Below, piece by piece: positions 2,457 to 30,253 of a stretch of 30,549 nucleotides of DNA; position 1 is the stretch's first letter, and every line of letters starts with the position of its first letter. The translations under genes and the position numbers were made by a program. The stretch is from positions 1 through 30,549 of the IMG/VR virus record IMGVR_UViG_3300042924_008538. One strand, given 5' to 3'. Under the pieces are notes generated by a model, which did no database searches, had not been told where the DNA came from, and was given only the letters and a program-made list of their open reading frames with translations. The stretch is from a virus.

Positions 2457-2906
2457 TTATTCAAAATAATAAGAAATTACTATTCTTTTTAATAAATTAT
2501 ACATATCTACTATAGCATAATCTTCAGAGGACATATCTTCTTTATAATCCTTATATTTATCCATAATTTTTTTCATAACTTCAGCAAAAAACTTTCTACT
2601 GTGTTCATAATAAGAAAGAAGATGTGATACTGGTTCGTATTCTTTTTCTCTATCATCAAAAACTCCTAAATCCGCTAAAGATTCTTCTATAGTCGAAATT
2701 ATAAGTCTTTTATTTTCATAAAATGCATCTTCACTGTTTGTAAAAGTAGGCTCTTCACCAATTTTTAACTCTTCTACCTTTTCTTTAGCAATGCTAAATA
2801 GCATTTTACTCCAACCTTCAAATGTATTCTCTAAAACACCTTGTGATACTTCTTCTCTAATAACACTTTTTACAAGTTGTCTTAGTTCGTTTAAAGTTAT
2901 TTTCAT
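2457..2906 (-). CDS. Small protein with shared 18-residue leader (149 aa)
   Basis: The protein starts MKITLNELRQLVKSVIRE, the leader also found in the genes at 2967, 4613 and 29759. The rest is a charged, mostly helical-looking sequence with many Glu and Lys residues (SIAKEKVEELKIGEE, EVMKKIMDKYKDYKEDMSSED) and no similarity to the other three bodies. No enzyme motif, signal peptide or membrane segment is visible. I infer that the leader is a capsid-targeting peptide with a possible prohead-protease site at I16-R17-E18, which would make this an internal head protein. A late-type motif lies 25 nt upstream. Otherwise unknown. Confidence 0.75.
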   Translation of the reverse strand: MKITLNELRQLVKSVIREEVSQGVLENTFEGWSKMLFSIAKEKVEELKIGEEPTFTNSEDAFYENKRLIISTIEESLADLGVFDDREKEYEPVSHLLSYYEHSRKFFAEVMKKIMDKYKDYKEDMSSEDYAIVDMYNLLKRIVISYYFE

Positions 2907-2966: not shown

Positions 2967-3263
2967 TTAATCTTCATCACCCTCACCAACTTTTACCATT
3001 AACCTATGAAGTTCGTCTTTAGTTACTACTTCTTCATTTGAATCTATTTTATTTTCCTCACGTAAATATGTTGTTAAAAACTTTTCAATATTTGGAATCG
3101 ATAAAAATGCTTTATTTTTTAATGTTGTTACTAATTTAGATTTCCAATTATAAATTTCAATACCATTTTCAGTTTTTTTATAAAAATACTTATTACCTAC
3201 AGAATATGTTTCTTGAATAACATCTTTGACAATTTGACGAAGTTCTTTTAATGTAATTCTCAT
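2967..3263 (-). CDS. Small protein with shared 18-residue leader (98 aa)
   Basis: Begins MRITLKELRQIVKDVIQE, the shared leader, with I16-Q17-E18 at the conserved IxE position. The body (KYFYKKTENGIEIYNWKSK, then a segment with FLSIPNIEKFLTTYLREE and a Glu-rich tail VVTKDELHRLMVKVGEGDED) has no recognised domain. YFYKKTENGIEIYNWKSK looks like two short beta strands. The gene lies between two other late-motif genes on the same strand, and its late-type motif overlaps the end of the DUF192 gene upstream. I infer a virion-internal protein; the function of the body is unknown. Confidence 0.75.
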   Translation of the reverse strand: MRITLKELRQIVKDVIQETYSVGNKYFYKKTENGIEIYNWKSKLVTTLKNKAFLSIPNIEKFLTTYLREENKIDSNEEVVTKDELHRLMVKVGEGDED

Positions 3264-3275
3264 AATTATATTTTA

Positions 3276-3698
3276 TTAATAAATATTCATAACTTCCTCT
3301 TTAATAATATTTCTTATGAAATTTTTTAAGGTTTCATTACCCTCTTTTAACTGCAATGGCAATGTAACTTTATCTCCTTTTTTTATTCCTAAATTTTTAC
3401 AAGTACCGCCTTCTACTTCAAAAATGTAATTACCATAACCGCAATAACGTTTATTGTCTTTATCGTTAGAAGGTTTGCAATTATGATGAATCTTTGTTAT
3501 TGTATCTCCATCGATAAAAATAATATCTAAAGGAATGATACAATTTTCCATTATAAAGCAATGTTCTTCTAATTGCTTTACAAACAACATTCCATTGAAG
3601 GTTTCATCAAAAGTTTTAAACATCATTCCCTTTCTTAATTCCTTTGAAGATGTTTGAACTTTTATTTTAAATTTATTATCGTTTATAGTTAAATTCAT
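3276..3698 (-). CDS. DUF192 family protein with C-terminal leader-like helix (140 aa)
   Basis: The family pattern is clear: SKELRKGMMFKTF (18-30), GMLFV (36-40), CFIMENCIIPLDIIFID (47-63), a P in CKPS, YIFEVEGGTC (91-100) and GIKKGDKV (104-111). DUF192 proteins are small beta-barrel proteins of unknown biochemical role found in bacteria, archaea and some phages. Most bacterial ones have a signal peptide; this one does not. After the domain, residues 121-137 (ETLKNFIRNIIKEEV within them) resemble the 18-residue leader that starts four other proteins in the window, but here at the C-terminus. A late-type motif sits only 12 nt before the ATG, so the transcript may have almost no leader. Confidence 0.85.
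   Translation of the reverse strand: MNLTINDNKFKIKVQTSSKELRKGMMFKTFDETFNGMLFVKQLEEHCFIMENCIIPLDIIFIDGDTITKIHHNCKPSNDKDNKRYCGYGNYIFEVEGGTCKNLGIKKGDKVTLPLQLKEGNETLKNFIRNIIKEEVMNIY
3279..3288 (-). promoter_or_regulatory. Late-type motif GAATATTTAT
   Basis: GAATATTTATTAATAAAA on the minus strand; the core ATATTTAT starts 23 nt before the ATG at 3263. It overlaps the last codons of the DUF192 gene, so the promoter is embedded in coding sequence. Same class as the other late-type motifs; function inferred. Confidence 0.6.
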
Positions 3699-3702
3699 GT
3701 AT

Positions 3703-3711
3703 ATAAATATC
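3703..3711 (-). promoter_or_regulatory. Late-type motif GATATTTAT before the DUF192 gene
   Basis: GATATTTATATAC runs almost into the ATG at 3698. The core-to-start distance is 12 nt, the shortest of the set; the others are 19-28 nt. If it is a -10-type element, the mRNA would be leaderless or nearly so. Confidence 0.5.
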
Positions 3712-3718
3712 TGAATAC

Positions 3719-4531
3719 TTACAATTCTACATTCAGATATTTTTGAATTTCAAATATTTCATTCAAATATTTCCCTTTGACTTTTATTTTTTCATCAGGA
3801 GTAAGTTCTTTATTCTTTTCAATATGAATAGATGAGAATTTTTCATAGGCAACATTTTTCTCAATGATTTCAATACATTTTTCATAGGAAAAATCTGCAC
3901 CTTCCCAAAAATCAACATTACCCATTTCAAGCCATTTGCCTTCTTTAATCATATACCCTAATCCTGCAACAACGCTATCGGCTCTATCGAAATTCTTCTT
4001 GTTTATTTTCAATGCATTATTGAGTAACCATTTGATTCCTTTATATCTTTGGCTTACCAAATACATAATAAGGAACTTGCTCCATTCATTTTTGCCCAAA
4101 TCTGAAATCTTCTTAGGGAAATCTGACATCATTTTTCCATTCTTACCCATTAGCTCAGGTAAAGCATATCTTCTTGCATCATCAACAGTGATAAAATCAA
4201 CTGCGACACCCATTCTTTTAGATAATTTATTTGTCAAATATTCATTGAACATCTCAAGAAGTTTTGCCACCTTTTGAGATATAGAATTTAGCAAAGGTTT
4301 TTCTACAATTATCTTATGAATGTTATAGGAACTGAAGTCTTGATAGATTTTATCTACACATAAATCAGCTTTCTCTTTCAATCTTTCAAGTTGAGTTTCA
4401 GGTTCAGGATTTATTTTAGGTTCAAAATGTGTAAGAATAATTAACTTTCCCACATTTCCTAAATCTTCAAAGAGTGAAATTCCGATTGTAGATGTACTTA
4501 CATCCAAAGATAAAATATATTTAGAGTCCAT
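3719..4531 (-). CDS. RuvC-like Holliday junction resolvase (270 aa)
   Basis: An RNase H-fold nuclease of the RuvC type, expected to cut branched DNA during recombination and before packaging. Acidic residues in the canonical order are visible: D10 in LSLDVSTSTIG, E77 in IIVEKPL, and D182 with D185 in FDRADSVVAGLGY. The first motif with its STSTIG run and the final D-x-x-D followed by a small-residue helix are typical of the family. The protein is longer than E. coli RuvC (173 aa) because of an insert (about 120-180) and a C-terminal extension with no recognised motif. The gene starts shortly after the terminator at 4567-4591. A related but imperfect upstream motif, GATATATT, lies 19 nt before the ATG; no good TAnnTTTG is present, so its promoter class is unclear. 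Confidence 0.8.
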   Translation of the reverse strand: MDSKYILSLDVSTSTIGISLFEDLGNVGKLIILTHFEPKINPEPETQLERLKEKADLCVDKIYQDFSSYNIHKIIVEKPLLNSISQKVAKLLEMFNEYLTNKLSKRMGVAVDFITVDDARRYALPELMGKNGKMMSDFPKKISDLGKNEWSKFLIMYLVSQRYKGIKWLLNNALKINKKNFDRADSVVAGLGYMIKEGKWLEMGNVDFWEGADFSYEKCIEIIEKNVAYEKFSSIHIEKNKELTPDEKIKVKGKYLNEIFEIQKYLNVEL

Positions 4532-4566
4532 TTTTTTATTTTAATATATCATTTTTTATAGAAAAC

Positions 4567-4591
4567 AAAAAAAACCTCCCAAAAGGAGGTT
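4567..4591 (-). terminator. Rho-independent terminator
   Basis: On the minus strand the stem AACCTCC-TTTTG-GGAGGTT (4573-4591) is followed by a T-run (4567-4574). It lies about 20 nt after the stop of the gene at 4613-4939 and separates it from the RuvC-like gene. The 7-bp stem contains five G/C pairs, strong for this AT-rich sequence. Confidence 0.85.
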
Positions 4592-4612
4592 CATTTATTT
4601 TTTTGAGGTTGT

Positions 4613-4939
4613 TTATTTAGGTAATCCTTCTAATCCTAACATCATAACTGCAAGTTTAAATTCTCTATCATTTATAGTGCTAAAATTGGTAGTTTTACCT
4701 CCATTCACTTGAATTGTATTTGCAAGATTATTTGAACGTTTCATTACAACAGTATTATTGTCTTTTTTTAGTTCTATTGAAGACATTTCAGGTTGGTTAT
4801 TAGATTTTAAAACTTCATATCCATTATCGATAAATATATCAGTTGCACCTCCCATTGGAGGGTTGTTTGCTTCAGATAAAAGATTTTCCTTAATAACATT
4901 TTTAATAAATTGTCTTAGTTCACTTAAAGTTATTTTCAT
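4613..4939 (-). CDS. Small protein with shared 18-residue leader (108 aa)
   Basis: Begins MKITLSELRQFIKNVIKE, the shared leader with I16-K17-E18. It is followed at once by NLLSEAN, in which L21-S22-E23-A24 matches the full T4 prohead-protease pattern (L/I-x-E before G or A). After the leader comes NNPPMGGATDIFIDNGYEV, then alternating strands (SSIELKKDNNTVVMKRSNN, NTIQVNGGKTTNFSTI) and a final helix. No family recognised. It has its own late-type motif and terminator, so it forms a single-gene transcription unit at the end of the virion gene cluster. I infer a head-internal protein. Confidence 0.78.
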   Translation of the reverse strand: MKITLSELRQFIKNVIKENLLSEANNPPMGGATDIFIDNGYEVLKSNNQPEMSSIELKKDNNTVVMKRSNNLANTIQVNGGKTTNFSTINDREFKLAVMMLGLEGLPK

Positions 4940-4952
4940 GGCACTTTTTAAT

Positions 4953-4962
4953 ATAAATATTC
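4953..4962 (-). promoter_or_regulatory. Late-type motif GAATATTTAT
   Basis: GAATATTTATATTAAAAAG on the minus strand; the core ATATTTAT starts 21 nt before the ATG at 4939 and sits in the 31-nt gap after the 694-aa structural gene. Together with the terminator at 4567-4591 it defines a one-gene transcript. Confidence 0.65.
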
Positions 4963-4970
4963 AGTATTTT

Positions 4971-7055
4971 TTAAAAATCCAAAGAAACTTCTATTGCAAA
5001 TTTAGTATCTCTATCCATTTTTATTGGTCTGCTTATTTTTGTAATTGCAACCAATTCTTGTTCATCATCATAAAGCCCTATTTCCGAAAAATACAAATCA
5101 TCTCCTGAAGCCCAAGTAGGATTACTTGATTCAATATAAAGATTTGCATCAATTAATAACTTGAAAACAGTTCTATAAATACAAGCTCCAATGTAGGTAT
5201 CTAAATTTCCAAAGAAAAATCTTTCATCTCCAAATTGCAAATCTTCGGGGCAGTTCATCAAAGGAATATTCAATACACTTAAACTATATGGAATCCCTGT
5301 TATAAATTTCGCATTTGTAAGAATGAAATTAGTTTGTTGGATATTTTGGTTTTCAAATAGCAATGGGTTGATTGTATAACCATTTGCACTTGTAATAGCA
5401 TTTGTTGTATAGTTTATTGCTACCCATCCATCAGGGTCAGGTCTGTCATCAGGATTGTCTACCATTTGCACAAGAACTTTAAATCTATGAGCATAAAATC
5501 CTAATCCATCATATCCACCTTGTTCAAACTGTCTCATATAAGGAAGAAGTCCTGTATCTTCCAATGAAAATTCAATATCTCTATCGATTTTAGAGTTATT
5601 TATGAACTTAGTATATTTCTGTTGAGGTAAAGTGTACTGAAGACCATTATTTGCTTCTAAAGCATAAGTCATATACATTGTTTTACCTTTTGGTAAAATT
5701 CCTGTATTCAATCCATTTATAGGGAAAATTAACCTACCATCTAATCTTGGCAAAGTGAAATTTCTACTTGACTTATAAGACATAGTTGCAAGCAATTCTT
5801 CATCATGAATAACAACTACTTTCAAATCAGGGAATACTCTTCCAACTGCAATAGGTGTTCCTGAAGGTTGTATCAATGAAGGGTCTTCAAATAACTCATA
5901 ATATTCAATATTACTTTCAGGAACAGTTTTAGTATCTCCTGAAGTAATAAAGTTCATTCCTATAACATTACCTGCACCTGAACCCCCAAACCATCTTCTA
6001 TGCCACATAACTGTTGGCATTTTTATAGTTAAAGGATTTGATTCATTATGGTTTATATAATATTTTTCACCGTAATCATTTGAAATATTAAGGTTTGTAA
6101 AGTGAATGATTCCAATCCCTTTGATATAGTTGTCATATACACTTAAAAATTTATCTTCACAATCTATTCCACTATTTAAAGCTTCAGGTAAATCTATGTT
6201 ATATCCAAAGTATTCCTTTTGACCTACATAATCCATTGAACCGTAATAATGGTAATCTTCATTGTTAGATTGAGTTCCCAACATGCTTTCATTCCAAACA
6301 TTGTTCATGTTTAAAACGTTGACATCATATTGGGAAACATCACAGGTTGTGATAAATTCAAGAGTTTCTTTATTCCAATAAGGAATTGTTGAACCACTAC
6401 CATAATATTCAAGTATAGACTCTCCTTTAGGAAAAATGTAATAATTGACAGAAATATCAGCCAAAAATGAGAAGTATGGCAAATATCTATCAACAGTTAT
6501 AATAGTTGAAAGCGGAGTCTTTTCTATTTTGTACCAAAGATATAATACAGGGGCTTCAGTTTCTTCAGGAGTTAAAGTTCCTACAATAGGATTATTTATT
6601 TTGAATAAGATATAATCTCCATCTTCAAAATTAACAGTTCCAATGTCAATTGTATTACTCCCATTGAATTGAGAAAGCAATACAGTTCCTGATGTTCTCA
6701 GATAATCGCTGCTTGTAATCAATTCATCGGTAGTACCACTGAAAAAACCTCTTTCAATTGCTCTATCTTTAACGCAGCATTCGATTGTTTGTCTTTCACC
6801 TGCAGCAATAGGAGATAATATTGCACATTCAGCTTTTTCTAAGAAAGTTTTGGTGTTCGGTTGAAAATCTTTTGGTTTCAAAATATTTGAAGTTCCAAAT
6901 TCAGAAGGAATATCTTCAATATTTTTATAATCAACTTCAGAATCACCCAAACTCCAAAAACCCCAAGTAAAAGTTCCTCTTGCGATTTTCTCTCTTCCTT
7001 TGGCTGTCAATCTTGTTAAAATTAATGGACTCTTCTTTTCTATTATATAAGACAT
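4971..7055 (-). CDS. Phage structural protein, probable tail or baseplate component (694 aa)
   Basis: Last gene of the large virion cluster. The N-terminus, LILTRLTAKGREKIARGTF followed by WGFWSLGDSEVDY, is a pattern I associate with virion proteins of large marine-type phages, but I cannot name the protein. The C-terminal half has FYAHRFKVLVQMVDNPDD, then IPLMNCPEDL, FFGNLDTYIGACIYRTVFKLLIDANLY, and ends DLYFSEIGLYDDEQELVAITKISRPIKMD, a tail-fibre-like ending also seen in T4-type fibre tips. It is rich in aromatic residues, Asn and Gly, lacks membrane segments and a signal peptide, and looks mostly beta. It starts 14 nt after the preceding gene with no promoter of its own, so it is co-transcribed. 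Role inferred from position and composition. Confidence 0.65.
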   Translation of the reverse strand: MSYIIEKKSPLILTRLTAKGREKIARGTFTWGFWSLGDSEVDYKNIEDIPSEFGTSNILKPKDFQPNTKTFLEKAECAILSPIAAGERQTIECCVKDRAIERGFFSGTTDELITSSDYLRTSGTVLLSQFNGSNTIDIGTVNFEDGDYILFKINNPIVGTLTPEETEAPVLYLWYKIEKTPLSTIITVDRYLPYFSFLADISVNYYIFPKGESILEYYGSGSTIPYWNKETLEFITTCDVSQYDVNVLNMNNVWNESMLGTQSNNEDYHYYGSMDYVGQKEYFGYNIDLPEALNSGIDCEDKFLSVYDNYIKGIGIIHFTNLNISNDYGEKYYINHNESNPLTIKMPTVMWHRRWFGGSGAGNVIGMNFITSGDTKTVPESNIEYYELFEDPSLIQPSGTPIAVGRVFPDLKVVVIHDEELLATMSYKSSRNFTLPRLDGRLIFPINGLNTGILPKGKTMYMTYALEANNGLQYTLPQQKYTKFINNSKIDRDIEFSLEDTGLLPYMRQFEQGGYDGLGFYAHRFKVLVQMVDNPDDRPDPDGWVAINYTTNAITSANGYTINPLLFENQNIQQTNFILTNAKFITGIPYSLSVLNIPLMNCPEDLQFGDERFFFGNLDTYIGACIYRTVFKLLIDANLYIESSNPTWASGDDLYFSEIGLYDDEQELVAITKISRPIKMDRDTKFAIEVSLDF

Positions 7056-7069
7056 ATTATTTTATTTTA

Positions 7070-7699
7070 TTATGATATTGTTATTTTTTCATCGAAACCT
7101 ATTGGATAATTATTTGGATTACTTAAAGAACTCCCAAAAAGCCCTCCTGCAGCAAAATAATTTCTATAAATATTTATTTTAGTGCCAAGATTAGAATTAT
7201 ATCTACATCCATCCGCAATAATTGTTATATTTACAGGTAATTCTGCAATAATTAAATCTACATTATTCATATCAGTATCAGTTTGCTTGTAACCTGTAGG
7301 AGAGATTGTAGATATTGGTACTTGAAATGTTTGCGAAGTTAATCTCATATCTAAAGGCGATGGACATGGTGGTGCAGGAATAGTACATGATGAATATAAG
7401 TCTACAATTGCATTAGGTGTCATAGTATCTAAATGTATAACTTGTGGTCTTCCATTTGTAAACATTTCTTCAATATATCCACCTTGTAAGTTAGGTGTTA
7501 ATAACCATTCTGAAAATGTGCCATCTTTCCAAGGAAATGCATAAAATTCAATAAACATATCAAAAGTTCCAATTGTTTGATTACATTCGACTTGTAAAAC
7601 ATGTATTAAAAATTCTCTTTGAAATCCATCAGAATCGTTTCCATCTAAATCAACATGTGAAGTTCCAAAAATATTAACATCAAAAGTGGTAAATGGCAT
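7070..7699 (-). CDS. Hypothetical virion protein (209 aa)
   Basis: Lies between the 694-aa and 961-aa structural genes with gaps of 14 and 3 nt, hence part of the same transcript and probably of the virion. It starts MPFTTFDVNIFGTSHVDLDG. Recognisable pieces are only compositional: a strand-rich N-terminal half (FDMFIEFYAFPWKDGTFSEW), a proline and cysteine stretch (CTIPAPPCPSP) and a C-terminal LPVNITIIADGCRYNSN. No membrane segment or enzyme motif. The N-terminal GNDSDGFQREFLIHVLQVEC could form a beta domain. Function unknown. Confidence 0.6.
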   Translation of the reverse strand: MPFTTFDVNIFGTSHVDLDGNDSDGFQREFLIHVLQVECNQTIGTFDMFIEFYAFPWKDGTFSEWLLTPNLQGGYIEEMFTNGRPQVIHLDTMTPNAIVDLYSSCTIPAPPCPSPLDMRLTSQTFQVPISTISPTGYKQTDTDMNNVDLIIAELPVNITIIADGCRYNSNLGTKINIYRNYFAAGGLFGSSLSNPNNYPIGFDEKITIS

Positions 7700-7702
7700 A
7701 TC

Positions 7703-10588
7703 TTAAAAAATTGTTGAAGTAACTGTTGTTGAAGTATCATTTGCAGGTATAGTTAATGTAATAGAATTTTTATGAACACAAAAATCTTCATCAAATAATG
7801 CAATATCAATTGTAATAGTATTTCCTACAATGAAATTAGGATTATCAGTGGCAAAAGTAACATTCTTAAAGAAATTTTGATACCAAGGTGAATCGGTTGC
7901 TCCTGCAGTATTAGCATCTCCACTTGGAGTTAATTGATTAAATCCAAATTCTAAATAATTACTCAATTCAACATCAGGAGTATAATCTGCACCACTATGA
8001 TATCTTTCTTTTGCGACCAAAATAGCATTAGTAAAATTCAAATCTGATATTTTGTAACTTCCTGTTAACGTGCCTAAATATGATGTTGGAGAAGTTAAAT
8101 TCACTTCAAAAACATAAGAATCAATTCCCGAAATAACTCCACTAAAATCATTAGTCAATTTAACCTCCAATTGGAACTCATTATCTCCACAAGTAACAGG
8201 GGTACAATTATCCAAAGGAATAGGGCAATCTATCTCTATGAAGTTATTTGTGCTTGTACAACCATTAGCATCTTCTACAGCAATTATTACAACCTCATCG
8301 TGTTCAGCTTCAAAAGTAACACTTCCACCTTCAGTAGGAATAGTTCCCGAATAATATCCTGTAATAGTATAAGGTGCTTGACCTCCTGAAACTGTCAAAG
8401 TTACATCTGCAAAACCTGTGTTTATACTTTCAATTTGAATACATTCATATGAAAGATTTGCTACTATTACTACACTCTCACAAGTATCTCCTGTAGGTAT
8501 AGGTTCACCTGTTATACATTCAAAATCATTGAAACCAATATAATTTTCAATAGTATTCTCACCATTTTCATTTGTGGAATATTGTACCAATTTTCCTGAG
8601 AAATTCCCTTCTCCACCTGAACCTGAATATCCAATTGTGCCACCTGTAAAAATGGAAGTACATTGAACATTTCCAAAATCAAAACTTAAAAATCCATCGA
8701 TACTATCAAAGCTTTCTGATAAACATTTATCACTCACAACGGTACAAACAACAGTTACTCCTGAAGGAGAATCAATTTCAGTATCACTTTCGCCACCTAA
8801 AGTATATTTTTTGTATGTATGCTTTGGTTTATGAAAAATATTGTTTTTATAAGTATATTGTGCCTCATTCCATATAGTTGTCGCAGGAAGCAATTGTTTT
8901 ACTGCAGAATACCAATAGTCTCCTGTATTATTTATGATTTCAATTCCATAAGGATAATCTAATGCTTTCGTTGGAGCACAATCTAATCCATCTAAATATT
9001 GTTCATAGATAGTATTTAGGAACGGATATTGTCTAATAAATTGCCTTCCAACAGGATTAATAGCTTCGTATGTAATATAGTTTTTAGTAAGAGTAGTATA
9101 TCTTTCATCTATAGCAATAAAAAACTTTCTATAATATTCATAATAAGAAAGTACATCTGATTCTATATATTTTACAGGATTGATAGTTAATTCTAATTCT
9201 TTTGTATTAAAAATCAATCTTGAATCAAAATCTTGATAATTTGTTTCTTGATTTTCAAATTCATAAGTTCTACTTGTTAATTCTTCAGAGTATAACCATC
9301 CTTTCTTATTATCAATAACCTTATCAAATTCTAATCCGTATTGACTTGGAATAATCACACATTTAGTTTGATTATTACTGCATAATTTTGAAACTTTCAC
9401 ATTATCCAAATGAACACAAGCTCCAAAATTGAAATTGGCAAAATTTAAATTGAATTTAGTGAAAGAACCCACTAAATCAGAATTTAAAATGAAGGTGCTC
9501 TTTGTCCAAGAACCTTTAAATCTATTTTCTATATCTACATCTGAAACACAATCTAATCCTAATTCTGTTGAAATTAAATCATTGACAAAAGCGCAATCTT
9601 CTTCAGAACCTGTTGTACCAATTCCATAAGGAACAACCGCTGAATCAAAAGTATATAAATTTTCATCTTGAGCTAAAAGATATGTAGTATCTCCTGTATA
9701 AGAGATAGTTCCACCTGTATAATCTAATATCAATCCTTCTTCATCTGTTAATACAAATGCCTGAGCATTAACAGCTAAATCACCTAAAACTTCTAATATA
9801 GTTCTTGTATCAGTTTGAAGATATTCAATCAATTTTCCACAATCAATTTGTGCAAACCAATCAAATTCAAAAAGATATTGACAATTAGATTCTATAACAA
9901 AACTTTCTCCTGATAACTGATTAAAGTTTAATTGAACGTTTATATCACCGCATTCACATGAACCATCATCAATTACTGCAATAAGGTCATAATTTACTGC
10001 AACAGGATTTGTACATCCTGAAGCAAAAATACAAGACCCATCATTATAATCAGCATTAGGATTATAATTTACTGCAAGAGGATTTGTGCAGCCAAATACA
10101 GGCTTTAACAATGAACAACTACCATCATCAAAATTTGCATTAGGATTGAATTCATAATAAAGCGGATTAGTACAACCCGAAATTACTTCATATCCTTGAA
10201 CAAATATATCACAATATGAAAAATCTTCAGTAGGATTAGGTGTCAATAATACATGACTACAAGTATGTTCATAAAAACAATCTTCAACTCTTATTTTTAC
10301 TTTTATGTTTATAACGACATTAATAGGTTCAGTTGAAGGATAATAAAAATTGAAATTAAAAGTATCTCCTGTTGAAGTAATGTACTGTGTCTCGGAAATA
10401 GAAGCATCTTGAAGATTAACAACAGGTAAATCTCTTACTCTATCCACAATAACTTCACCTGAAATAGGGAATCCGTAGGTGTTGAAAATTTCAACATCTA
10501 ATTGCCCTTGAACCAACCCATTTACTAAATCAGGCGTGGAATCATAAGTTACCGTTTGTTTTATTCTTACATTCTGTAAACAAGCCAT
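7703..10588 (-). CDS. Large tail or adhesin-type virion protein with GCTNP repeats and a SprB-like segment (961 aa)
   Basis: A multidomain structural protein. Residues 138-211 hold three 21-residue units GCTNP(x)12DGSC. Around 725-785 lies a SprB-repeat-like segment (TVSGGQAPYTITGYYSG, then AVEDANGCTS). Both motifs are common in Bacteroidetes surface adhesins and secreted proteins; the Asp- and Asn-rich GCTNP unit may bind Ca2+ and its paired Cys could form disulfides. The middle (about 230-640) has a region ending FNLNFANFNFGACVHLDNVKVSKLC that looks like a jelly-roll, then a Tyr-rich part (SYYEYYRKFFIAIDERY, YPYGIEIINNTGDYWYSAVKQLLP). The C-terminal 170 residues are beta-rich. No membrane segment or signal peptide. 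The gene is tightly packed within the virion operon. A host-binding role is inferred. Confidence 0.7.
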   Translation of the reverse strand: MACLQNVRIKQTVTYDSTPDLVNGLVQGQLDVEIFNTYGFPISGEVIVDRVRDLPVVNLQDASISETQYITSTGDTFNFNFYYPSTEPINVVINIKVKIRVEDCFYEHTCSHVLLTPNPTEDFSYCDIFVQGYEVISGCTNPLYYEFNPNANFDDGSCSLLKPVFGCTNPLAVNYNPNADYNDGSCIFASGCTNPVAVNYDLIAVIDDGSCECGDINVQLNFNQLSGESFVIESNCQYLFEFDWFAQIDCGKLIEYLQTDTRTILEVLGDLAVNAQAFVLTDEEGLILDYTGGTISYTGDTTYLLAQDENLYTFDSAVVPYGIGTTGSEEDCAFVNDLISTELGLDCVSDVDIENRFKGSWTKSTFILNSDLVGSFTKFNLNFANFNFGACVHLDNVKVSKLCSNNQTKCVIIPSQYGLEFDKVIDNKKGWLYSEELTSRTYEFENQETNYQDFDSRLIFNTKELELTINPVKYIESDVLSYYEYYRKFFIAIDERYTTLTKNYITYEAINPVGRQFIRQYPFLNTIYEQYLDGLDCAPTKALDYPYGIEIINNTGDYWYSAVKQLLPATTIWNEAQYTYKNNIFHKPKHTYKKYTLGGESDTEIDSPSGVTVVCTVVSDKCLSESFDSIDGFLSFDFGNVQCTSIFTGGTIGYSGSGGEGNFSGKLVQYSTNENGENTIENYIGFNDFECITGEPIPTGDTCESVVIVANLSYECIQIESINTGFADVTLTVSGGQAPYTITGYYSGTIPTEGGSVTFEAEHDEVVIIAVEDANGCTSTNNFIEIDCPIPLDNCTPVTCGDNEFQLEVKLTNDFSGVISGIDSYVFEVNLTSPTSYLGTLTGSYKISDLNFTNAILVAKERYHSGADYTPDVELSNYLEFGFNQLTPSGDANTAGATDSPWYQNFFKNVTFATDNPNFIVGNTITIDIALFDEDFCVHKNSITLTIPANDTSTTVTSTIF
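9956..10177 (-). repeat. Three GCTNP...DGSC coding repeats
   Basis: Three protein units of exactly 21 residues (138-158, 166-186, 191-211 of the 961-aa protein), each from GCTNP to DGSC, with spacers of 7 and 4 residues. Units 2 and 3 share near-identical DNA over about 30 bases (around 9988-10018 and 10070-10100), which suggests a fairly recent duplication; unit 1 is more diverged. They are translated domains, not a CRISPR or regulatory array. Confidence 0.85.
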
Positions 10589-10589
10589 A

Positions 10590-13265
10590 TTATGGTAATA
10601 CTATTTTTGTTTCTGTGACATTATCACCTAATTGTCTCGGATTAACTGTCATATTTGTAAATGATTCAGTGTATTCACATCCATTTGTAAATGTTACATC
10701 AATATCAATATCAAATGAAATAGTTGTTGGTATTGGTTGAGCAGGGTCAGCTTCACATAAAGCACTGAAATCTAAATCAACTGTTTCTACTCCTGCAAGT
10801 AAGTTAAATGTTGTAATTACAGGTGAGCCTACAACATAAGCATCATCTCCACCATTACCTGTAATTGTTAATTGTACTGTGTCTATAATATGTCCTGCAG
10901 GAAGTGGGTCTAAATCGAAGACAACGTTTACTTTACCTGAACATGGTGATTCTAAAGTAACACTTGTTGTTTCAACTGACATATCTATAGTTATGGCTTC
11001 ACATTCTACTTCTTCAGGCAGAGGACAATCTATCAACACACTTTCGGTTACTTCACAGCCAAAAATATCGTAAACTGTTATAGTTGCAAATTCACCATCG
11101 TTTATTATATCCCCATCTTCAATTCCTGTTGAAGAAACTCCATTATGTGTTACTGAAACTGTTGCAGTACCATCATTTTGACCGAATTCGTCAAGATTAC
11201 AGATATATGTAATAGTTGCAAATAAGTCTGTGGTCAAACATGGGTCAACACATTCAATTGTAACATTATATGTATCAGAAACACATCCATTTTCATCTGT
11301 ACCATAAATAGCAAATGTATCGCCTGTGGAAACAATTTGACCATCTGTTGCACCTGAAATTGAAACAACTCCCTTTCCCCCATAAGAATTTATATGCAAA
11401 ACCGCAGTATCCCCACTTGCATTGCAATCATACCAAATATCTAATATGATATTAGTGCAACCTGTGAATATTGTTGGAGTAGAGCAAATTTTTAAAACTT
11501 TATCTGAAATAGGTAAAGGACATCCACAATCATCCAAAAATATTTCAGGATAAGGGTCTGTAACAGTTTCACCTGAAACAGTGAAACATTCATTATGAAT
11601 CAAATTGTTATCAACTATATCATAAGCTAAATTAACTCCTGTCATTTCCCAATTTTGTTCAAAAAGAACTTTATAACTTTCTACATTTTCAGTATAAGTT
11701 AAAGTAGTTCCTGTAAATTCACTTGGGAATAAATTTACATACTTATAAAAATATGATAAACCTCTATCTAATTTACCGTATCTTTGAAAATAATCAATTT
11801 CGTTATCAGGATAAAATTTTGGATAACCTTCCTCATCTATAGGTAGAGTATTAATATCAAATGTAACATTTGGGTTTATAAGGTTATAATAAAATCTTAA
11901 TTTATCAACGTCTACAGGTTTTTTTGCTCTGATGACATATTCATTAAAATCAACTATTTCTTGAGGAATCCCTAAGAAATTTAACATAAAATCTATAGCA
12001 TTCCTTGTTCCTTTTGATTTAAATACCCAAGCAGAGTTTAATGCTAATAATCTCAATAAATCATTTGGAAGTGGTGGATTAATGTTCATGTCCCATCCTA
12101 AAGATTTAATAAAATCAAAAAGCAATGCTTCAGGCATACTATCTCTTTTTGTATAAGTTACTGAATTCAAAGTTCTAATACCTTCTATATAATAGTTGAT
12201 ATCGTCTAAATTTCTTCCATATACTATTAAAAGTCTATTGACTTCGCCATAAGTGGGGTATTCTGCATTAAGGTCTTCCAAAGTAACACTTTGCACACTT
12301 TCGGGGACTAATTTTCTCATTAAGAGATTACCCTTTTTATCATCAAATTTTTTAGCAAATTCAACTAAGTCTGCCACATAGATATCATAAAAAGCTGAAA
12401 CTATATCAAGATTATAATCATCTGCTTTAGGAAATTGTAGTTCCAAGTTATAATCTAAAAACAATCCACCATCAACTTCTTCAGTTGTTTGAAAGATTGC
12501 GCTGAAATTATTATCTTTGTTCAAAAGATATGCTTCAAAATCATCTAAGGAATCATAAAAAAGATTTATCTCAGAATCCATAGGTTTAATATAGAATTCT
12601 TTAGAACTGTTTCCAAGGTCAAAAGGATTTCCTTTGATTTTTATTTTGACAAAATCGTTTGTAGTTGTTTGAGAAGGAGTGAAATTCAAAATAGGATATT
12701 TCACTCCATCAACTACTAATTCATATTTATTAAAATTTTTGGTTAAATTTCTTAATGAAGGAATTCTTTCATCGGGAAATTTATAGTCAGGATTGCTTTG
12801 ATGATAGATTCCAAAAGGATTTGAAAAGAAACTTACATTTGCAGAAAATGTAGTTGTTTCATCAATAAAATAATATCCCGAATTAATTATATTTTGACCT
12901 ATAACTCCTAAAACATTTGTTTTTGAGTATATAGATGCAGGATATGTTAAAAGAATTGTTTCTAAAGAAACTCTTACTAATTCCAAAAGAGAACTATACT
13001 TTGAAAAATACTTTGGATTTGTTTTATCCAAATAAAGTTTTAATGACTTCTCAGGATTGAATACAGTATTCTTTAAAGAAACAGTCTCTACGTTTTCTAA
13101 AGTGTAAAACGTAGAGAATTTTGGAGGTAAAAAGGTTCTTGCTCTTGGTGGATTTAAATTTGTAGTGACTTCCACTCCGCCAATTGTAGATATTACAGTT
13201 GCGGTATTATTTAGTGCTAAGTCATTAGTTTTGTGTGGAACTTCTCCTACATATTTTTCAGCCAT
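10590..13265 (-). CDS. Baseplate protein with tail protein I-like region and SprB-like C-terminal domains (891 aa)
   Basis: Residues about 395-445 (NDLLRLLALNSAWVFKSKGT, then RNAIDFMLNFLGIP) resemble the core of phage tail protein I (P2 gpI family), where a helical W..K.KGT signature precedes a segment linking the baseplate to the fibres. The N-terminal 390 residues are structural-looking with no recognised motif. The C-terminal third carries beta domains with SprB-like endings: YGTDENGCVSDTYNV near 650, VYDIFGCEVTESVLIDCP near 735, and a final all-beta domain. The start codon shares the TAATG junction with the stop of the upstream gene, indicating translational coupling. I infer a baseplate-to-fibre adaptor. 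A 12-bp perfect hairpin lies in the mRNA near residues 50-61. Confidence 0.65.
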   Translation of the reverse strand: MAEKYVGEVPHKTNDLALNNTATVISTIGGVEVTTNLNPPRARTFLPPKFSTFYTLENVETVSLKNTVFNPEKSLKLYLDKTNPKYFSKYSSLLELVRVSLETILLTYPASIYSKTNVLGVIGQNIINSGYYFIDETTTFSANVSFFSNPFGIYHQSNPDYKFPDERIPSLRNLTKNFNKYELVVDGVKYPILNFTPSQTTTNDFVKIKIKGNPFDLGNSSKEFYIKPMDSEINLFYDSLDDFEAYLLNKDNNFSAIFQTTEEVDGGLFLDYNLELQFPKADDYNLDIVSAFYDIYVADLVEFAKKFDDKKGNLLMRKLVPESVQSVTLEDLNAEYPTYGEVNRLLIVYGRNLDDINYYIEGIRTLNSVTYTKRDSMPEALLFDFIKSLGWDMNINPPLPNDLLRLLALNSAWVFKSKGTRNAIDFMLNFLGIPQEIVDFNEYVIRAKKPVDVDKLRFYYNLINPNVTFDINTLPIDEEGYPKFYPDNEIDYFQRYGKLDRGLSYFYKYVNLFPSEFTGTTLTYTENVESYKVLFEQNWEMTGVNLAYDIVDNNLIHNECFTVSGETVTDPYPEIFLDDCGCPLPISDKVLKICSTPTIFTGCTNIILDIWYDCNASGDTAVLHINSYGGKGVVSISGATDGQIVSTGDTFAIYGTDENGCVSDTYNVTIECVDPCLTTDLFATITYICNLDEFGQNDGTATVSVTHNGVSSTGIEDGDIINDGEFATITVYDIFGCEVTESVLIDCPLPEEVECEAITIDMSVETTSVTLESPCSGKVNVVFDLDPLPAGHIIDTVQLTITGNGGDDAYVVGSPVITTFNLLAGVETVDLDFSALCEADPAQPIPTTISFDIDIDVTFTNGCEYTESFTNMTVNPRQLGDNVTETKIVLP
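13085..13117 (-). other. Perfect 12-bp inverted repeat inside a coding gene
   Basis: TCTCTACGTTTT (13085-13096) and AAAACGTAGAGA (13106-13117) are perfect reverse complements with a 9-nt loop. They lie about 150 nt into the 891-aa gene and would form a stable hairpin in its mRNA. No T-run follows, so a terminator is unlikely. Confidence 0.7.
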
Positions 13266-29758: not shown

Positions 29759-30253
29759 ATGAAGATTACACTAAGAGAACTCAGACAAATTGTAAAAACA
29801 GTTATTAAAGAAGAGAAAAAAAGTATTAAACAGGAAAATGTAATTAATGCTGTTAATGCAAAATTACAAGGAATCGCTGCAGGTTTAGGTGCACGTCTTA
29901 GGACTGACAAAAATAATGCTCAAATCCAAAAATATGCAACACAGGTACTTACAAGGTATAGTAATGTTTCAACAGCATTAAATAGTGGATTGATTGAAGT
30001 TACTAAATTTAAACAAGCCATATCTGCTTTGCAAACTAATGGTGCTCCTGAATATAAAGCGCAAATTGATACATTACTTGCTACATCCGATGAATATTTA
30101 AATGCCATACAAACTATAAGAGCTGCAGGGATGAAATTTTATAGTTTAGTTGCAGGAATGCAAAGAAGCGCAAACTCTCAAGGTTTAGCTAATAAACAAG
30201 CTGCAACGGCTCAGACTACAACTCCTGCTGCAGGTACTACTCAGGCAAAATAA
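29759..30253 (+). CDS. Small protein with shared 18-residue leader and Ala/Thr-rich tail (164 aa)
   Basis: Begins MKITLRELRQIVKTVIKE (I16-K17-E18). The body is almost all helical in appearance and rich in Ala, Gln and Asn: NVINAVNAKLQGIAAGLGAR, QIQKYATQVLTRYSNVSTAL, MKFYSLVAGMQRSANSQGL. The last 25 residues are low in complexity (Ala, Thr, Gln). Two or three amphipathic helices could form a bundle or coiled coil. It is unrelated in its body to the other three leader proteins and is the only one on the plus strand, far from them (about 25 kb), with its own late-type motif and a strong terminator. I infer a head-internal or scaffold-associated protein. Confidence 0.78.
   Translation: MKITLRELRQIVKTVIKEEKKSIKQENVINAVNAKLQGIAAGLGARLRTDKNNAQIQKYATQVLTRYSNVSTALNSGLIEVTKFKQAISALQTNGAPEYKAQIDTLLATSDEYLNAIQTIRAAGMKFYSLVAGMQRSANSQGLANKQAATAQTTTPAAGTTQAK

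Follow-up and report, generated by a model that had tools for sequence, protein, structure and literature searches.

In phage T4, the internal proteins and Alt bear an N-terminal capsid-targeting sequence (CTS) of 10-20 residues, which binds the prohead core and is removed by gp21 (passages of PMC7411985 and PMC9026906); Alt, a ribosyltransferase with such an N-terminal CTS, is head cargo (passages of PMC7411985). According to passages of PMC9026906, blocked cleavage can leave targeting intact, it is the N-terminal part of the CTS that mainly determines targeting of IPIII, and the C-termini of Alt and gp21 are processed too. For the SPN3US protease gp245, a C-terminal propeptide was proposed to target the protease into the prohead core (passages of PMC7411985), and these passages contain no statement that the propeptide has the same sequence as N-terminal targeting peptides. 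In phage P1, a short N-terminal signal of DarB suffices to bring a reporter into the head (passages of PMC9024508). Neither the leaders treated below nor a cargo protein with a capsid targeting peptide at its C-terminus is described in the literature listings or in the passages of PMC3012670, PMC5694885, PMC9024508, PMC10229621, PMC10052503, PMC7411985 and PMC9026906.

At the locus described here, a DUF192 protein ends in a tail that resembles leaders at the N-termini of other proteins of the same phage. As with the T4 CTS, the element is short (10-20 residues in both cases), is common to otherwise unrelated small proteins and has a glutamate where cleavage could occur, and the likeness extends to relatives with T4-type head protease and capsid genes and tagged ADP-ribosyltransferases. 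Unlike the T4 CTS, it is C-terminal here (internal in relatives), has a different sequence, would form a longer basic amphipathic helix and is a putative signal for packing and cleavage. With the C-terminal segments of T4 Alt and gp21 and the SPN3US gp245 propeptide it shares a place at the end of a protein, such head-protein segments being removed or proposed to target (passages of PMC9026906 and PMC7411985); however, the gp245 propeptide has 64 residues and belongs to the protease itself (passages of PMC7411985). The DarB signal differs in being N-terminal and in having no consensus even among Dar proteins (passages of PMC9024508). Head proteins processed at their C-termini have been published (T4 Alt, the SPN3US protease), and the tail would be a variant on this theme. 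We class the tail as CTS-like but outside the T4 family, because the N-terminal position is missing and the cleavage-site evidence is mixed. Labels for packing into the head are otherwise known almost solely at the fronts of proteins.

The DUF192 protein has a C-terminal addition outside its domain

DUF192, a domain of unknown function, is widespread. In the window, as we call the whole 30,549-base stretch of viral DNA that was analysed, PF02643 matches residues 10-112 of a 140-residue protein, scoring 73.5 bits (gathering cut-off 27). The core of the AlphaFold2 model of this protein has the DUF192 fold, as judged from its Foldseek match to 3m7a_A (E 6e-9, TM 0.71), and both solved DUF192 structures, 3m7a and 3pjy, match it. 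The protein is thus like other members of DUF192/COG1430 (PF02643) in domain, fold and length as far as the GDKV motif at residues 108-111; TLPLQLKEG follows, and then NETLKNFIRNIIKEEVMNIY (residues 121-140). It differs from them in this extra helix at its C-terminus, which is 20 to 30 residues long. PHROGs offered no family for the window DUF192 protein, nor for the nine leader proteins submitted.

A preliminary description of this DNA had read residues 121-137 as NETLKNFIRNIIKEEVM, with which our reading of the 140-residue open reading frame agrees; its residues for the tail were right, while its placement at 3276-3335 was slightly off (exact positions in Table 1). It had also taken the tail for an addition to the DUF192 fold, and this is borne out, as PF02643 stops at residue 112 and the tail is modelled as a separate helix of low confidence. 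In the model of the window protein this helix spans residues 115-137, after the last strand; pLDDT over the tail is near 50, and the tail is not placed within the DUF192 fold with confidence. In the model of the orthologue from a related genome (G001), a helix follows the last strand at residues 115-145, with block means of 56-74.

The window domain departs from its relatives at four positions that are near-invariant among phage DUF192 proteins, being conserved without defining the family. W49 is replaced by I (W in 43 of 43 other viral rows) and K51 by E (K in 42 of 43), while C77 and C82 are replaced by S and N (C in 40 of 43 other viral rows each). All four residues are kept in the L014/L015 orthologue.

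Table 1. Positions of the tail, the DUF192 gene and leader-bearing sequences (window positions unless G006 is named)
Feature	Position	Strand	Basis or remark
Window			30,549-base virus record
DUF192 (COG1430) gene, 140 aa	3276..3698	-	PF02643 and Foldseek
DUF192 domain, residues 10-112	3363..3671	-	PF02643
LKE, residues 117-119, between domain and helix	3342..3350	-	possible [LI]xE site, as read from the letters
C-terminal tail, residues 121-140	3279..3338	-	lacking in 157 of the 159 distinct DUF192 proteins compared
Leader-like helix core TLKNFIRNIIKEE, residues 123-135	3294..3332	-	leader-only profile 17.7; helix in models
Leader MKITLNELRQLVKSVIREE of 149-aa protein 2457-2906	2850..2906	-	sequence and profile
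Leader MRITLKELRQIVKDVIQET of 98-aa protein 2967-3263	3207..3263	-	sequence and profile
Leader MKITLSELRQFIKNVIKEN of 108-aa protein 4613-4939	4883..4939	-	sequence and profile; L015 homologue has internal leader
Leader MKITLRELRQIVKTVIKEE of 164-aa protein 29759-30253	29759..29815	+	sequence and profile
G006 PF18760 ADP-ribosyltransferases with leader-like N-termini	41257-41826, 47633-48454	+	Pfam
G006 PF18760 ADP-ribosyltransferase with leader-like N-terminus	119219-119812	-	Pfam

The tail matches the N-terminal leaders

Judged by its sequence, the tail belongs to the family of this phage's N-terminal leaders. We built a position-specific profile from eight such leaders (four of the window, two of G001 and one each of G007 and G008), leaving both known DUF192 tails out, and ran it over the 347 proteins predicted for the lineage, in 100,782 scanning windows. 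Next in rank after the training leaders came the tail of the G001 DUF192 protein (19.5), an N-terminal leader that had been held out (18.7), a leader at an internal position (18.4) and the tail of the window protein (17.7). The last value was reached somewhere in 14 of 400 shuffled proteomes; at the C-terminus, taken as the final 25 residues, none of the 400 had a protein that reached it. Among 1648 distinct proteins of other viral loci, 19 matches scored above 14, namely 13 N-terminal, six internal and no C-terminal ones. A residue-class pattern of the helix core, which was composed with the tails already in view and which the internal leaders do not match, was run over 3085 proteins with some 750,000 residues and matched 17 times: 15 matches are N-terminal, two are the DUF192 tails and none is internal. 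By set, these were 11 N-terminal matches and the two tails in 358 lineage proteins and four N-terminal matches in 1448 other viral proteins, with none in 217 immuto proteins and none in 1062 bacterial proteins.

The earlier view of the tail as a copy of the leader helix at the C-terminus is well supported by the leader-only profile and by the retention of the helix in the other orthologue; the details of the likeness required correction. The proposed register, which paired TLK with ITL, requires a gap, and the gap-free match lies three residues off, placing L124-K125-N126-F127-I128-R129-N130-I131-I132-K133-E134-E135 on leader positions L8-R9-Q10-(L/I/F)-(V/I)-K-x-(V/I)-I-(K/R/Q)-E-x. The leader consensus had been written with a final EE, which holds for two of the four window leaders, the others ending in ET and EN. 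The tail has no counterpart of the leader's first five residues (MKITL), and it shows neither the MK-I-x-L start of the leader family nor its N-terminal position. On the DNA, tail and leaders are 0.45-0.67 identical over 42 nucleotides, mostly below the identity of leaders with each other, and for this reason we claim no recent copying.

Among the DUF192 proteins compared, the tail is confined to one lineage

A second tailed DUF192 protein was found in G001 (IMGVR_UViG_3300017778_008710), with the tail SKLKNLVKKIVKEELKNKKLF. The copy in IMGVR_UViG_3300027892_005230 is identical to the G001 gene over 441 of 441 nucleotides (L014 against L015), so the independent tail sequences are only two. Window and G001 proteins are 61% identical, and 65% in the domain (73 of 112 residues); the helix core is retained in G001, and the linker before the tail is of other length and sequence.

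We compared the last 60 residues of 159 distinct DUF192 proteins among the matches listed (45 viral and 114 cellular), in which the tailed pair scored 19.5 and 17.7 and the remaining 157 at most 4.4. Alignment with homologues had been suggested earlier as a way to see whether the tail is phage-specific, and among these 159 proteins it was seen in two viral ones only. None of the 114 distinct cellular proteins among the matches listed carries it, and a cellular origin of the tail, tried as a candidate, was rejected on these scores. The preliminary description had named a cellular copy of the tail, or its packing as part of the DUF192 fold, as what would refute its reading; neither was observed. 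The cellular proteins were found by a DNA pattern for WMKNxxIPLD (at least 118 stretches); a scan of genome contigs with a DUF192 alignment gave no relative. Some cellular DUF192 proteins (e.g. L222, L249 and L273) have other C-terminal extensions, which are not leader-like. Viral relatives that have no tail, with identities reaching 72%, stop within a few residues of the GD motif. A DNA pattern of the tail, run over the viral contigs, found no third record beyond the two known. In a tree of 44 viral DUF192 domains the tailed two join with modest support (80/79) within a set of 22, and a single gain of the tail is possible. On these comparisons the tail is conserved in its lineage and limited to it within the collections searched.

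At 38 of 78 untailed viral DUF192 loci (L030-L107), a loose pattern picks out an N-terminus of leader type in the flank (KIVRLTESDLxxLVKRIIKEQ and the like), so DUF192 tends to neighbour such genes.

Relatives with T4-type head genes make a head-targeting role of the tail plausible

Head genes were observed in two relatives and neither in the 30.5-kb fragment of the window nor in G001. The nearest isolate by the baseplate protein (30% identity) is Flavobacterium phage immuto, which is annotated with T4-like gp20, prohead protease and gp23. Between its tail genes and primase, i.e. in the same place as the leader cluster of the window, immuto has proteins starting with MKKSELVKLIKEEL and MKKSQLREIIRKEL, and its gp080 starts with MKKSQLRQIIKEAL. 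A closer relative is G006 (184,534 bases; baseplate protein 75% identical), in which PHROGs recognised two head proteins, namely a T4-type maturation protease (phrog_207, 6e-32) and the major capsid protein (phrog_138, 2e-62). Pfam searches with Peptidase_S77 (PF03420) and Gp23 over six records matched nowhere, not even in the controls, and so carry no weight. G006 also has a terminase, a portal and, between the protease and capsid genes, just before the latter, an acidic scaffold-like open reading frame (36995-38161). Ahead of the conserved part of its capsid protein, a possible cleavage site between LVE and S was noticed by eye. Ten proteins of G006 and immuto, picked for such N-termini or for position, were compared with Pfam; G006 supplied eight of them, of which three are ADP-ribosyltransferases (PF18760; Table 1).

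We consider it about an even bet (a probability of roughly 0.5) that the tail represents a portable helix for head targeting, similar in kind to the T4 CTS and placed at the C-terminus of DUF192. From what is established for the T4 CTS, together with the precedents of C-terminal processing and of a C-terminal propeptide, the tail would most likely dock the DUF192 protein on the prohead core. That the helix docks on head or scaffold, the DUF192 protein being putative virion cargo, is plausible because the relatives have T4-type head genes and leader-like N-termini on ADP-ribosyltransferases. In this scenario, the basic amphipathic helix would dock on the prohead core in assembly and bring the DUF192 protein into the head alongside the N-terminally tagged proteins, and the DUF192 protein would later be ejected into the host. 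Release in the window phage could follow by a cut at LKE119 and/or IKE134, and in the relative with VKE only the tag may simply stay on. On the other hand, the tail has no MKITL counterpart and IPIII depends mainly on the N-terminal part of its CTS, which counts against the head-targeting reading. So do the finding of head genes in G006 and immuto but not in the window or G001, a cleavage motif that is not conserved in L015, the lack of clear [LI]xE enrichment in G001 and the window, and the small number of independent tails.

Cleavage at the tail is less certain than the proposed docking

The window protein has both LKE119 and IKE134, whereas the L015 tail has only VKE and its linker no conserved motif. 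The [LI]xE motif was counted in residues 6-25 of the proteins of four proteomes, each set against 500 controls. It is enriched in G006 (74 of 180 proteins, control mean 46.9, reached by none of the 500 controls) and in immuto (52 of 176, control mean 37.6, reached by one control). There was no enrichment in G001 (12 of 58, control mean 13.8, reached by 388 controls) and no clear enrichment in the window (9 of 25, control mean 6.1, reached by 67). The evidence for cleavage at the tail is mixed, and we infer such cleavage with less assurance than docking.

These counts bear on another explanation, in which leaders and tail are one docking tag for a different partner, be it a host target, the inner membrane or a phage complex for replication or late transcription, to which the DUF192 protein would be sent in the infected cell. 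It would agree with the fact that it is the helix, rather than the cleavage site, that is conserved ([LI]xE not being enriched in G001), and with the surroundings of the DUF192 gene, which together with three leader genes of the window sits amid replication-type genes (RuvC-like, primase, phosphoesterase); head localisation is a prediction for every tagged protein. But three tagged proteins of G006 are ADP-ribosyltransferases and so of the kind of ejected cargo that T4 Alt represents, and the enrichment in G006 and immuto fits prohead-protease sites. We judge a partner other than the head to be unlikely, at perhaps one chance in a few.

Leaders also occur inside proteins

In G001, a 250-residue protein (L015, 7151-7903, plus strand) starts with a leader at residue 1 and contains another near residue 150, and the stretch after the internal leader is 48% identical to the window protein at 4613-4939, which in the window has an N-terminal leader of its own. 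Two open reading frames of L327 (316 and 7964, plus strand) contain internal leaders that retain their Met (MNKKEIRQMIKEEL and MKKSELRQLIKEM), as though cargo genes had run together through loss of their stop codons. The internal leaders of L015 and L327 mean that the element need not start a protein.

It is tempting, though we hold it only tentatively, to go one step further and propose a single position-independent head-targeting helix that may stand N-terminally, between fused cargo domains or C-terminally, so that its addition to either end would make any gene cargo, DUF192 having been recruited in this way. The leaders would mark sets of small phage proteins of unknown function as probable head cargo delivered at infection. 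If true, the C-terminal and internal forms of the helix would imply targeting without need for a free N-terminus, the recruitment and fusion of cargo genes would be explained, and the ejected proteins of uncultured phages of this type could be listed by a rule based on sequence. A DUF192 version delivered with the genome, if true, would also give a handle on DUF192 function.

Loss of a stop codon would be a simple source of fusions, and the DUF192 tail could share that origin. Taken alone, the same event gives a further explanation, in which the stop codon ahead of a leader gene disappeared, the leader became the end of DUF192, its cargo was lost in turn and the helix is now idle. A leader gene does lie directly downstream, starting 12 nucleotides from the DUF192 stop, L015 and L327 do contain leader-bearing fusions (some with an internal Met), and the loss of W49, K51, C77 and C82 in the window may mean that the whole protein is decaying. 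However, the helix core is retained across domains that are 65% identical although the linker length changed, and the L015 domain has all four near-invariant residues and yet is tailed, which makes an idle relic improbable. Least probable of all is an ordinary amphipathic helix, for oligomerisation or fold capping, with a chance likeness to the leaders, since, short as the motif is and although 14 shuffled proteomes reached its score somewhere, no shuffle did so at a C-terminus, no C-terminal match above 14 occurred in the other loci, the pattern was never internal and was absent from the bacterial proteins, and untailed DUF192 proteins evidently manage without a tail.

Additional features of the related genomes

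A second class of leaders was noticed in G006, where open reading frames at 3520-10275, 43872-47632 and 73143-75323 have a different common N-terminus (of the MDIKKLNEIMKKRLDEGFFGNIQEEE type). The portal protein of the same genome (800 residues; 31157-33559, plus strand) has, by eye, an intein-like insert at about residues 150-330. Four further open reading frames of G006 (at 11205, 41936, 70310 and 170132) resemble, again by eye, transposon-associated TnpB genes, three of the four starting with MQYKSLKIRLEPT. In L016 (2173-6558, minus strand) and L017 (1113-1805, plus strand), the gene for the large subunit of ribonucleotide reductase appears by eye to be broken into intein-like halves with an endonuclease-like open reading frame between them, and a helicase open reading frame of L016 (7640-8845) likewise has, on inspection by eye, an intein-bearing look.
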